A DNA stretch of 64,000 bases from Natronolimnohabitans sp. A-GB9 (lineage in GTDB: Archaea; Halobacteriota; Halobacteria; Halobacteriales; Natrialbaceae). The notes beneath the pieces are model-generated. The model did not search any database. It was not told the origin of the DNA and saw nothing but the letters and a program-made list of their open reading frames with translations. Of the stretch, positions 11,213 to 28,656 are shown in pieces (the stretch's first letter is position 1; each line of letters begins with the position of its first letter). The translations under genes and the position numbers were made by a program. The stretch spans positions 124,001 to 188,000 of the forward strand of contig NZ_JAVDDV010000003.1 of NCBI RefSeq assembly GCF_030848565.1, in the 5' to 3' direction.

Positions 11213-11962
11213 ATGGACGGTGCCGACCGACGGGCGGACGAGGCGCCCGACGACGCCGTCGACAAGGAGACGATCCGGAAGCGCGTCTGGGACGACCTCG
11301 AGGACAGCGGCGAGGCACGCTTCCCGTTTCCGCCCCACGGCCGGATACCGAACTTCGCCGGCGCGGACGAGGCTGCGGACCGACTCGCCGACCAGTCCGA
11401 ATGGCAGGCGGCGACGACGGTCAAGGCCAATCCCGACGCGCCCCAACTACCAGTCCGTCGCCGGGCACTTCGGGAAGGGAAGACCGTCTACATGGCGGTT
11501 CCCCGTCTCCGGGACGAGCAGTGTTTCCTCGAGCTCGATCCCGCCGAACTCGAGGATTACGACGCGGCGACGACCGTCTCGGGCTCGTCAGAACACGGCG
11601 TCCAGGTCGGCCCCGAGGACGTTCCCGAGATCGACCTGATCGTCTCGGGAAGCGTCGCGGTCACCGAGGATGGGGGCCGAATCGGTAAAGGCGAAGGCTA
11701 CAGCGACCTCGAGCACGCGATCCTGTACGATCTCGGGCTGATCGACGAATCGACGCCGGTCGCGACGACGGTCCACGAACGCCAGGTGATCGGCGATCCC
11801 GTCGCGCTCGACGCCCACGACGTCCCGATGGATCTGATCGTTACGCCCGACCGGACGCTCCGTCCCGCAGTCAGCGACGGTCCGACTGGAATCGACTGGA
11901 AGGCGGTATCCGAGGACCGACTCGAGGAGATTCCGGTACTGAAACGACTTCGCGATCGGTGA
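11213..11962 (+). CDS. 5-formyltetrahydrofolate cyclo-ligase-like protein
   Basis: A 249-residue protein of the MTHFS family, which converts 5-formyl-THF to methenyl-THF with ATP. Visible features are RKRVWDDLEDSGEARFPFPP, KTVYMAVPRLRDEQCF, the family hallmark GRIGKGEGYSDLEHAILYDL near residue 160, and VHERQVIGDPVALDAHDVPM DL near the C-terminus. The start ATG 11213 comes one base after the moaB stop, pointing to a two-gene operon. The family also contains archaeal members of unproven substrate, so the reaction is inferred. Confidence 0.85.
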   Translation: MDGADRRADEAPDDAVDKETIRKRVWDDLEDSGEARFPFPPHGRIPNFAGADEAADRLADQSEWQAATTVKANPDAPQLPVRRRALREGKTVYMAVPRLRDEQCFLELDPAELEDYDAATTVSGSSEHGVQVGPEDVPEIDLIVSGSVAVTEDGGRIGKGEGYSDLEHAILYDLGLIDESTPVATTVHERQVIGDPVALDAHDVPMDLIVTPDRTLRPAVSDGPTGIDWKAVSEDRLEEIPVLKRLRDR

Positions 11963-12064
11963 TGCGCTTCGAGAACGAGACGTACTGATACTGCTATGGC
12001 CTGCCGTCGGTTAGCGCCGACGCGACCGCAGCTCAGATACGATTATTCGACACGTCGAAACCAC

Positions 12065-12305
12065 CTCGAGGCGCGAAAAACGGCACGCCTCGAGTGCCAA
12101 CCGCAGGGTGAAACCACAGGCAGGTGCAGCGGGGCCTGGGTCGGTACCGGGATCGGTACGGTGTGGCAGTGGTGGGGGGAAGGGTGCTGTGGGTGGGGTT
12201 GCTGGAAGTCACGGGTACAGGCGGTGGATGCCTTGGTGGGGTCTCCCGTTGACCTCCATCTACACGATGGACGAGGTCCCACTTCAACGGGGGCGATGGT
12301 ACCAG
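12065..12305. ncRNA. Candidate structured RNA of unknown class
   Basis: Inverted repeats seen: CTCGAGGCG 12065-12073 with CGCCTCGAG 12086-12094; CCCGTTGA 12245-12252 with TCAACGGG 12284-12291, enclosing CCATC/GATGG (12256-12260, 12266-12270); and GGTAC near 12214 with GTACC at 12298-12302. The plus strand is strongly G-rich with a quadruplex-type motif at 12174-12198. Conserved landmarks of RNase P or SRP RNA are not recognised. The strand is undecided: a TATA-like AATTAAAT on the minus strand near 12333 would start a transcript at about 12305. Confidence 0.3.
12174..12198 (+). other. G-quadruplex motif
   Basis: Four G-runs of 6, 3, 3 and 4 with loops AA, TGCTGT and T meet the canonical G3+N1-7 pattern. 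It lies inside the candidate structured RNA, between two convergent genes. Confidence 0.5.
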
Positions 12306-12471
12306 TGTCTTATACCGGATTCCGTCGGATTTAATTCGCATTTACTTGTCCGAATTCGGCGTCGACACCGTTTATGCGGTAGATACTGACGAAATACCGA
12401 ATTTCAATTATAGGATCCAAACGTGGTCGGCTCGAGCCGGTTCCGAGAACGGAAACGAGTCGTGGACGGTG

Positions 12472-12798
12472 TTAATCGATCAGTTCGTCCGCGACGATCG
12501 CGGCGTCCATCAGTTTTGGATCGACGGCGAGATCGAGCTGTCCCTTGACGAACTCCGGTATCGTATCCCGTGCGTAGACGACGGTCCGAATCTCCTCGGA
12601 GAGGTCACAGACGATCGGGATCGTCGTCGCCTGTCCGATGTCGGTCAACACGTACAGGTCAGCCTCGAGGATTCCTGCCTCCTCGAGTGCGGGTCGGGTA
12701 ACGACGCCCGTGACACGGGTGACATCGGCGCCTTCGGCCTCGAGGGCTGCGGTGATGTCGTCCTCGTCGGGGCCGGCGACGATTACGTCTACACTCAT
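12472..12798 (-). CDS. Small TrkA-N-like Rossmann protein downstream of guaAb
   Basis: A 108-residue protein: [20 protein letters not shown], then [39 protein letters not shown], and [20 protein letters not shown]. It resembles a truncated TrkA-N nucleotide-binding fold, but GPDEDD stands where the GxGxxG loop should be, so NAD binding is doubtful. The start overlaps the guaAb stop by 4 bases, giving a pyrG-guaAb-orf operon. The position suggests a role tied to nucleotide synthesis; that is inference. Confidence 0.75.
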
Positions 12799-26679: not shown

Positions 26680-28307
26680 TGGGACCGAAACAGTTCGTCC
26701 TCGAGTATTGGCGGCTCATGCTGTTGATCCTCTTCGTCGGGGGTGCACTCGTCGCCCTCTTCATCCCCGGCGGGATTATGGCCGACGACAGCTACGTCGA
26801 GGGCGAACGCGTCGACGACACGCCGACGAACATCGAGTACGGCCTCGGTCTCGAGGGCGGGACACGCATTAGCGCGCCGGCTGTCGGTATGGTCGCCGAG
26901 GACATCGACGCCGGCGTCGTCGACGACGACGGGGCCGTCGATCGCGAACGAGCCACCGAGATCGAGAACACCCTGTACGAGGAACTCGACCTCGAGACCG
27001 GCGATGCGAGCGTCACCATCGACGACGACGGCAGCGTCCACGCCGAACTCTTTACAGATGAGGTGACCAGAGAAGACTTCGCCGCGGTACTCAGTGCGGA
27101 GGTAGATGGCGAGATCGACCCCGACGAGGACGTCCGTGACGGCGTCTCGGACGCGACCCGCGGCGAGATGATCACGACGATCGAGTCGAAGATCAACGAG
27201 GCCGGGCTCTCCGGCGGAGAGGTCTACGAGTCGGCTCAGCTCGGTGGTGGCTACTACATCGTCACTGAAGTGCCGGACATGGACCCCGACGAGCTCCGCG
27301 AGTTACTCTCCGAACGTGGTCTCGTCGAAGTCCAGGCGTACTATCCCGACGAGGACGGCAATCACACCAACGAAACGGTGTTGACCGGACAGGATATCGT
27401 GACGGCCGATTCGCCGGAGCCGAACGAGCGGGGGTCGGGATACTTCGTTTCGGTCGAGGTCGATAGTAACGCCGCCCCGTCGTTCCAGGAGCGGATGAAC
27501 GAGATCGGTTTCACCGATCCGGCCGAAGGTGTCGGTCAGTGTAACCTCCGTGGCGATGGCGAGAGCATCGACTTCGATCACACGGGCGAGCAGTACTGTC
27601 TGCTGACGGTCGTCGACGGCGAGGTCGTCGACGCTCACTCGATGGGTGACCTCGCCGAGCCGATGCGGGCCGAAACCTGGGACAGCGATCCGACGTTCCA
27701 GATGGGCGCCCAGAACGTAGAGCAGGCCCAGGGGCTCTCCGTGAGCCTCCAGGCCGGTGCGCTTCCCGCACCGATGGACTTCGATCAGGAACAGACCTAC
27801 TCGCTGTCGCCGGCGCTTGCCGATCAGTTCAAGCTCTACTCGCTGATCATCGGCGCGCTGTCGATCGTGACGGTAAGTGGCGTCGTCTTCCTGCGGTATC
27901 GGGACGTCCGCGTCGCGACGCCGATGATCCTCACCGCGATGTCGGAGGTGGTGATCCTGCTTGGCTTTGCGGCGCTGATACGCATGCCGCTGGATCTCTC
28001 CCACGTCGCCGGCTTCATCGCGGTCGTCGGGACCGGGGTCGACGACCTGTTGATCATCGCCGACGAGGTGATGGACGACGGCGAGGTCAACTCACAGCGG
28101 GTGTTCGAATCCCGCTTCCGGAAGGCGTTCTGGATCATCGGCGCCGCCGCGGCGACGACGATCATCGCCATGTCGCCACTTGCCGTGTTGAGCCTCGGTG
28201 ACCTCCGTGGGTTCGCCATCATCACCATCCTCGGCGTGCTGATCGGGGTGCTCATCACCCGGCCCGCCTACGGGGACATCCTCCAGCGGCTCCTGACGGA
28301 CAAGTAA
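26676..28307 (+). CDS. secD: Protein-export membrane protein SecD
   Basis: A 543-residue partner of SecF. An N-terminal anchor (WRLMLLILFVGGALVALFIP) is followed by GLGLEGGTRISAPAVG, a large extracellular P1-type domain to about residue 370, then GALPAPMDFDQEQTYSLSPA and five membrane helices with VAGFIAVVGTGVDDLLIIAD and SRFRKAFWIIGAAAATTIIA. The start overlaps secF by 4 bases. A strong hairpin follows the stop. Confidence 0.95.
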   Translation: MMGPKQFVLEYWRLMLLILFVGGALVALFIPGGIMADDSYVEGERVDDTPTNIEYGLGLEGGTRISAPAVGMVAEDIDAGVVDDDGAVDRERATEIENTLYEELDLETGDASVTIDDDGSVHAELFTDEVTREDFAAVLSAEVDGEIDPDEDVRDGVSDATRGEMITTIESKINEAGLSGGEVYESAQLGGGYYIVTEVPDMDPDELRELLSERGLVEVQAYYPDEDGNHTNETVLTGQDIVTADSPEPNERGSGYFVSVEVDSNAAPSFQERMNEIGFTDPAEGVGQCNLRGDGESIDFDHTGEQYCLLTVVDGEVVDAHSMGDLAEPMRAETWDSDPTFQMGAQNVEQAQGLSVSLQAGALPAPMDFDQEQTYSLSPALADQFKLYSLIIGALSIVTVSGVVFLRYRDVRVATPMILTAMSEVVILLGFAALIRMPLDLSHVAGFIAVVGTGVDDLLIIADEVMDDGEVNSQRVFESRFRKAFWIIGAAAATTIIAMSPLAVLSLGDLRGFAIITILGVLIGVLITRPAYGDILQRLLTDK

Positions 28308-28311
28308 ACGA

Positions 28312-28338
28312 CCGCGGGCGCGGTGGCCCGCGGCTTTT
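28312..28338 (+). terminator. Hairpin terminator after secFD
   Basis: CCGCGGGC (28312-28319) pairs with GCCCGCGG (28326-28333), followed by CTTTTG. The 8-bp G/C stem plus short T-run five bases after the secD stop fits a transcription terminator. Confidence 0.7.
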
Positions 28339-28656
28339 GTAATTCCCTCAAATTCAGCTGTGAAGCACTCCCTGTGAGGCGATCTCGTGGGATGAGGTTG
28401 GACGGTTTACATCCACGCTACCTAAATTGGTGTTGTGGCGTCCCGACCCGACCCGGCGCACCCGCACTTGCGGCGGGGTTTTGCGAGGCCGGTAGTTATC
28501 CGCATCACTGTGACTGTCATCGCCAGTCTCTGTTTTTGCAATCCATCGCACCGCAGCATTCACACTCGCGTTTCGATCCGAGTGATCTTGCTCGAGAGCA
28601 CACGCATCGTTTTGCTTTTATTATAGACTCGAGCGACGAGTTCCTCGCATCGGCTT
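28339..28656. other. Non-coding stretch, possibly a decayed insertion
   Basis: About 320 bases with no credible gene. Base composition is uneven, with A/T-richer patches (TACCTAAATTGGTGTTGTGG near 28420-28440 and TTTTGCTTTTATTATAGACT near 28611-28630) around a G/C-rich middle. I could not match it to a known element; it may be the wreck of an inserted sequence. Confidence 0.35.

Follow-up and report, generated by a model that had tools for sequence, protein, structure and literature searches.

Genomic context and organization of the locus

In the 64,000-nucleotide window of Natronolimnohabitans sp. A-GB9 that we analysed, the gene for 5-FTHF cyclo-ligase (plus strand, stop codon at 11962) and a DUF7126 gene (minus strand, 12472-12798) are convergently arranged; the genes for GMP synthase and CTP synthase precede DUF7126 on the minus strand. 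The gap between the two convergent genes holds a G-rich, repeat-bearing stretch, as the initial annotation of this DNA had described, and the stretch is present in a single copy in the A-GB9 genome. The Rfam covariance-model search that the annotation had proposed gave no match in the stretch at the gathering score, and with relaxed thresholds it gave one lncRNA match of 13.4 bits, which we took as chance. Using positions 11980-12420 as a query, we obtained one match per genome in 110 of the 125 genomes of the family, representing 25 of its 29 genera; conservation, which the annotation had proposed to check in relatives, is thus found across the family. It spans approximately 280 bp, and at its core lies an unpaired stretch that is near-invariant. 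The unit, including its putative promoter, reaches to about 12345, past the 12305 given in the initial annotation, and comprises the following features, listed in the direction of the proposed transcription:

12308-12345, minus strand: upstream promoter array, with adenines that recur every 10-11 bp within units resembling TTNAATTCGG
12281-12300, minus strand: predicted core promoter, an ACSGTC-like box and a TATA-like box
12259-12280, minus strand: predicted promoter spacer, 22 nt and constant in length, with a T/A pair at -10 (AT in the window)
12064-12261, minus strand: predicted non-coding RNA, based on minus-strand folding and covariation, with approximate ends
12203-12258, minus strand: helix P1, with its 5′ arm at 12258-12245 (bulge at 12249) and its 3′ arm at 12215-12203
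12160-12202, minus strand: C-rich, nearly invariant unpaired segment, in RNA sense roughly GCAACCCCACCACAGCACCCUUCCCCCACCAUUGCCA (alignments A3-A6)
12113-12142, minus strand: helix P2, whose loop reads CUGCACCGG in many relatives
12096-12108, minus strand: conserved P2-P3 linker CCCUGCGGUUGGC (alignments)
12066-12093, minus strand: helix P3, supported by covariation

Structure of the predicted RNA

The comparative analysis was based on the window sequence and 89 of the 109 matches in other genomes of the family, i.e., 90 sequences, whose counts should not be read as counts of independent events. After the removal of near-identical sequences, 59 rows remained; alignments A4 and A6 omit two and ten of the more divergent sequences, respectively, and alignment A5 consists of 35 hand-picked sequences, with locus L058 unparsed and L131 and L132 left out. 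Nine divergent loci were found through their synteny with DUF7126 and parsed by hand rules. The alignments show the predicted elements of the minus strand in the order P1, C-rich single strand, P2, linker and P3. P1 closes a variable loop that holds a small inner GGC/GCC hairpin, and the lengths of the C-runs vary within the C-rich segment.

We examined 34 named base pairs in 49 sequences and found that 95.4% of the cells were paired, versus 38.9-47.0% in slid controls. Changes on both sides occurred at 18 pairs (87 cells), while the shuffle control gave a mean of 7.7 pairs, and 0 of 500 shuffles reached any of the five measures. All 18 pairs are located in P2 and P3, where every pair shows such changes (9 of 9 in each helix, with 95.1% and 92.7% of cells paired, respectively). 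The 13 pairs of P1 are paired in 99.4% of cells and show one-sided changes only in this main set; among the nine divergent loci, a U-A pair is replaced by C-G in six and a G-C pair by A-U in two, with failures at pair 1 in three loci, pair 7 in two and pair 8 in three. One pair of the inner hairpin fails in 14 of the 49 sequences. RNAalifold, unaided, recovered P1, P2 and most of P3, and on the minus strand it predicted a 12-bp stem in which nearly all changes are one-sided and keep G-U, G-C or A-U pairs. A pairwise covariation G-test was dropped for the named helices, as it appeared to be dominated by changes shared within one clade.

Several of the pairings noted earlier are present in the window but are poorly kept in its relatives. 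The 9-bp hairpin at 12065-12073/12086-12094 exists and coincides with P3, a conserved and covarying helix; its exact register, however, has nine Watson-Crick pairs in only 5 of 90 sequences (at least seven in 52 of 90). Likewise, of the eight outer-arm pairs of the compound hairpin (12245-12252/12284-12291), all form in 2 of 90 sequences and at least six in 56 of 90; we assign the 5′ arm to P1 and the 3′ arm to the promoter box, a pairing that mixes the RNA with its promoter. The GGTAC/GTACC pair lost its standing as a conserved feature, with GGTACC found in only 15 of 90 sequences.

Strand of the predicted RNA

Folding the window sequence of the predicted RNA on the minus strand gave a z score of -3.98, with 0 of 200 shuffles as good, versus a z score of 0.29 on the plus strand (12064-12261), with 115 of 200 shuffles as good; the shuffled-control folding suggested with the initial annotation therefore singles out the minus strand. 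The wobble pairs of the 90 sequences have the same preference. Cells with a wobble pair possible on the minus strand only, versus the plus strand only, number 153 and 8 in P1, 87 and 30 in P2, and 97 and 51 in P3, those of P1 lying nearly all at two pairs. This strand bias indicates that selection acts on an RNA.

The initial annotation had looked at the G-rich strand, which is opposite to the C-rich segment and would be the template on our reading. A G-rich RNA or a quadruplex element of the plus strand finds some support in the canonical quadruplex pattern at 12174-12198 of the window, in the wobble pairs of the inner hairpin (33 plus-only versus 9 minus-only), and in a GTTYATAC box at 12370-12377 that could serve as a plus-strand TATA box, though directed away from the element. 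The quadruplex pattern, however, is kept in 5 of 90 sequences only, the plus-strand fold is no better than its shuffles, P1 drawn on the plus strand has an A-C mismatch at one pair in 89 of 90 sequences and at another in 58 of 90, and we noticed by eye no TATA-like box just before 12064 on the plus strand. We therefore regard a plus-strand element as extremely improbable. The outermost pair of P1 is standard in 90 of 90 sequences on the plus strand versus 83 of 90 on the minus strand, and a small GGCA/UGCU pairing predicted on the plus strand in the C-rich part has a G-U pair that is absent on the minus strand.

Predicted core promoter and 5′ end

Upstream of P1 on the minus strand, we identified an ACSGTC-like box at 12300-12295 (ACCATC in the window) and a TATA-like (G)TTSAAGT box at 12288-12281 (GTTGAAGT in the window). 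Measured without a preset spacing limit, TTSAAGT and the base that opens P1 (YGGAG) are 29 nt apart in 89 of the 90 aligned sequences, 30 nt in the remaining one, and 29 nt in all nine divergent loci. Other distances in the element vary, namely 43-70 between the P1 arms and 33-40 across the C-rich part. The spacer is low in information except at positions 12-13 (T in 77 of 87 and A in 75 of 87 sequences), which are ten and nine bases before the P1 stem, and at a few C/G positions. We read it as a promoter spacer because its length is constant while its sequence drifts, and we place the 5′ end of the RNA at approximately 12259-12261 because the TTSAAGT box lies at a fixed distance of 29 nt from P1.

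These positions are consistent with what excerpts of two reports give for haloarchaeal promoters, i.e., BRE and TATA centroids at -38 and -29 for sRNAs (PMC5892119) and a -10 "WW" element (PMC4983044), which would suit the spacing of the TTSAAGT box and the T/A pair, respectively. The CGAAA BRE, in its published form, was not seen before TTSAAGT. In the A-GB9 genome itself, the SRP RNA and tRNA-Pro genes have TTAAGT and GTTAAAGT ahead of their starts, while no such TATA-like box precedes the start of the RNase P RNA.

A GTATRAAC box on the minus strand (GTTYATAC on the plus strand; GTTTATGC in the window) is kept at 12370-12377 in most relatives; it is flanked by poorly conserved stretches and precedes the predicted start of the RNA by about 110-117 nt. 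In its plus-strand orientation, it resembles a haloarchaeal TATA box. We had considered a minus-strand transcript starting at about 12345, after this box, and gave it up, because a distance fixed at 29 nt implies a start close to 12260.

Most haloarchaeal mRNAs are leaderless, and the predicted 5′ end carries ATG in 54, GTG in 23 and TTG in 3 of 89 sequences. The element could thus be a leaderless gene for a small protein or a leader peptide, from which a short peptide would be made. Nevertheless, the reading frames from this triplet range from 5 to 171 codons, with 9 of 89 stopless to the end of the excerpt; the core is 141-169 nt long, and its length differences are not multiples of three and break the frames. 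Furthermore, conservation tracks the helices, the triplet is ACG or GCG in 7 of 89 sequences, and the A/G-T-G is also accounted for by a purine start followed by the first pairs of P1. The comparison of frames and lengths revealed no conserved reading frame in the predicted RNA, and we consider a coding function very unlikely.

The predicted 3′ end and possible termination signals

A terminator-like stem (12099-12081) followed by TTTTT (12080-12076) overlaps P3 and is found on the minus strand only; it is the one site returned by a terminator scan in which 0.3 sites were expected from shuffles. It possibly marks the 3′ end of the RNA, which we would place between approximately 12064 and 12080, giving a predicted length of roughly 180-198 nt. 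Of the 90 sequences, 37 have a T-run of at least four no more than 110 nt from P2.

The same site bears on the proposal that the region is a DNA element only, i.e., a two-sided terminator zone with a protein-binding site, whose hairpins are terminators. P3 covaries and lies about 100 bp past the cyclo-ligase stop codon, the TTTTT-bearing site is terminator-like on the minus strand, and the phased array upstream of the promoter could bind a protein, all of which would fit such an element. However, termination requires neither 43 nt of near-invariant unpaired sequence nor a second covarying hairpin, the T-runs are weakly kept, and the strand-specific wobble bias speaks of selection on an RNA. 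The strong bidirectional terminator zone of the initial annotation is likewise at odds with approximately 280 bp of conservation around a near-invariant unpaired core and with a single terminator-like site on one strand. We find it quite unlikely that the locus acts as DNA alone.

Instead, we consider it probable, judging from the sequence comparisons, that the intergenic stretch encodes on its minus strand a stand-alone, non-coding RNA that is structured, about 190 nt long and driven by its own promoter. Such a gene would lie downstream of pyrG-guaA-DUF7126 and face the cyclo-ligase gene convergently. The stable non-coding RNA that had first been suggested as one possibility is supported by single-copy, family-wide conservation, by covariation and by strand-specific folding.

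A phased adenine array upstream of the predicted promoter

The array comprises adenines at 12342/12341, 12331/12330, 12321/12320 and 12311/12310, plus 12300. Numbered with respect to TTSAAGT, the fraction of A in 89 sequences is 0.85-1.00 at -55/-54, -44/-43, -34/-33 and -24/-23 and 1.00 at -13; in the nine divergent sequences, it is 0.67-1.00 at most of the same positions. The array is gap-free across genera, and its adenines fall on one face of the helix. The analysis used 98 of 99 sequences. The lag-10 autocorrelation is 0.46 for the 89 sequences, a value reached in 1 of 2000 column permutations, and 0.60 for the nine divergent ones, reached in 0 of 2000; the region used had been chosen after the pattern was seen. 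The exact array pattern is found in 6 of 228 loci and is too strict to be useful.

Phylogenetic distribution

A degenerate pattern of the core matched 52 records in the named collection. We counted 48 of them, all haloarchaea, as Natrialbaceae, including Natrialba, Natrinema, Natronorubrum, Natronococcus, Halobiforma, Halopiger, Halostagnicola, Halovivax and Natrarchaeobius; the other four, from unrelated bacteria (Janthinobacterium, two Herbaspirillum and a Prevotellaceae bin), were taken as chance. At an E value of 0.001, covariance model R1 matched 93 of the 391 class genomes, all of them within the 101 genomes drawn from the family. Model R2, in whose construction the divergent members were included, matched 93 family genomes; it gave two second matches inside the family (E values of 0.017-0.026) and two matches outside it (0.043-0.048), the latter taken as chance. 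The covariance models thus detected no convincing homologue in the 290 genomes outside the family. A degenerate helix pattern matched 140 of the 391 class genomes, and the extra-family cases among the matches listed resemble chance hits or coding sequence. One pattern was searched in viral contigs and gave 0 matches.

DUF7126 itself, which adjoins GMP synthase in the window, has a match in 23 of 24 haloarchaeal genomes searched, belonging to several families. Among 23 DUF7126 loci, the RNA is located beside DUF7126 in nine; in the other 14, no copy was seen by eye within 560 nt. In one of these (G121), the same strand carries a match over 1 kb beyond DUF7126, and therefore the RNA gene need not directly follow DUF7126. 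In L126, the next gene is a different one (metG-like, read by eye). No copy was seen beside DUF7126 in genus g7, in two of the four g2 genomes examined or, by eye, in eight loci from other families. Two g2 genomes carry a distant copy (L131 and L132), in which the first stem is perfect over 10 bp and additional hairpins precede TCCAGCATCACTCCCCC; this suggests that g2 may have kept only a part of the RNA.

Comparison with known RNAs

The archaeal SRP RNA (RF01857) and RNase P RNA (RF00373) are likewise structured and have one match each in the A-GB9 genome, on other contigs; neither model matches the stretch described here, and only the SRP RNA of the two shares a similar TATA-like box. Based on its high conservation, and on a promoter box resembling those ahead of the SRP RNA and tRNA-Pro, the element could be an H/ACA or C/D modification-guide RNA or another housekeeping ribonucleoprotein RNA particular to the family. 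Neither of the C/D boxes, RUGAUGA and CUGA, was found in the predicted RNA of the window, however, and no pseudouridylation pocket with an adjacent ACA was recognized by eye: P1 has one bulge, P2 has no internal loop, GCA follows P1, and an ACA after P2 is present in some relatives and is not constant. The lack of an Rfam match also argues against this reading, as does the lack of unusual pairing to an rRNA operon, the control for which is weak. We judge a guide or housekeeping ribonucleoprotein RNA to be unlikely.

The C-rich segment was not unusually complementary to an rRNA operon from a related genome or to the SRP and RNase P RNAs of A-GB9, with 13, 3 and 8 of 25 shuffles as good, respectively, in a test that is weak because the single-letter shuffles were scored more coarsely than the real segment. 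The archaeal SSU and LSU rRNA models had no match in the A-GB9 assembly, while the LSU model matched two of three related genomes; rRNA contigs may be missing from the assembly.

As described in excerpts of the report on it, sRNA132 of H. volcanii (PMC6560208) is comparable to the RNA predicted here in being a small intergenic unit with a TATA-like promoter and no conserved frame. Set against such descriptions of haloarchaeal trans sRNAs, the A-GB9 RNA differs by its open C-rich segment, its phased promoter array and the absence of a convincing homologue in the 290 extra-family genomes. Excerpts of a halite metatranscriptome study mention 22 ncRNAs found in several Halobacteria, with no function assigned (PMC7002113); compared by description alone, they are the same kind of finding, and an overlap is possible. 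No name for this RNA was found in the excerpts of open-licence literature covered, including PMC7002113, PMC8303175, PMC4983044, PMC5892119 and PMC12482152; PMC8303175 refers to RNA-seq of the family member Natrinema sp. J7-2 at three salinities. It is very probably a previously unrecognized structured non-coding RNA.

Proposed function

That the RNA is transcribed, its exact ends and its mode of action are what we infer from comparative data. Transcription of the minus strand from the TTSAAGT promoter would give the predicted RNA of about 190 nt, in which the C-rich segment would be held open between stable hairpins. The C-rich strand, followed by P2 and P3, with their drifting sequence and kept pairing, is likely the working part. 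Most likely, the RNA would regulate in trans, its C-rich segment pairing with G-rich stretches of target RNAs or being gripped by a protein that recognizes it. We favor G-rich mRNA sites or a specific protein as the partner because the complementarity to rRNA, SRP RNA and RNase P RNA is not unusual. In this scheme, factors that occupy the phased array upstream would control expression of the RNA.

Bacterial sRNAs with C-rich loops, such as those of Staphylococcus, pair with G-rich ribosome-binding sites. A C-rich unpaired stretch held by hairpins is common to them and to the predicted RNA, a likeness that we take as an analogy only: the bacterial sRNAs pair at ribosome-binding sites, whereas haloarchaeal mRNAs largely lack leaders.

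More speculatively, and with considerable doubt, the family-wide RNA may be one, perhaps a scaffold for a housekeeping ribonucleoprotein, that uses its C-rich strand to bind either a dedicated protein or numerous G-rich mRNAs. Its promoter may also be of a new archaeal kind, with five helically phased sites that form a rigid array along one face of the DNA and would recruit an oligomeric activator to the TTSAAGT box.

Descriptions of archaeal regulatory RNAs have mostly been limited to single species. With its covarying structure, a C-rich open strand that is near-invariant and a promoter whose geometry is fixed, an RNA kept at a single locus across nearly the whole family would give practical access to the workings of haloarchaeal sRNAs. 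It could seed a new RNA family model, and its promoter array could serve for testing helically phased activation in an archaeal system.

Elsewhere in the window, at 28284-28496 on the minus strand, the Rfam model of the sense overlapping transcript RNA sot2652 has a match of 90.5 bits. Sense overlapping transcript RNAs are linked to insertion sequences.
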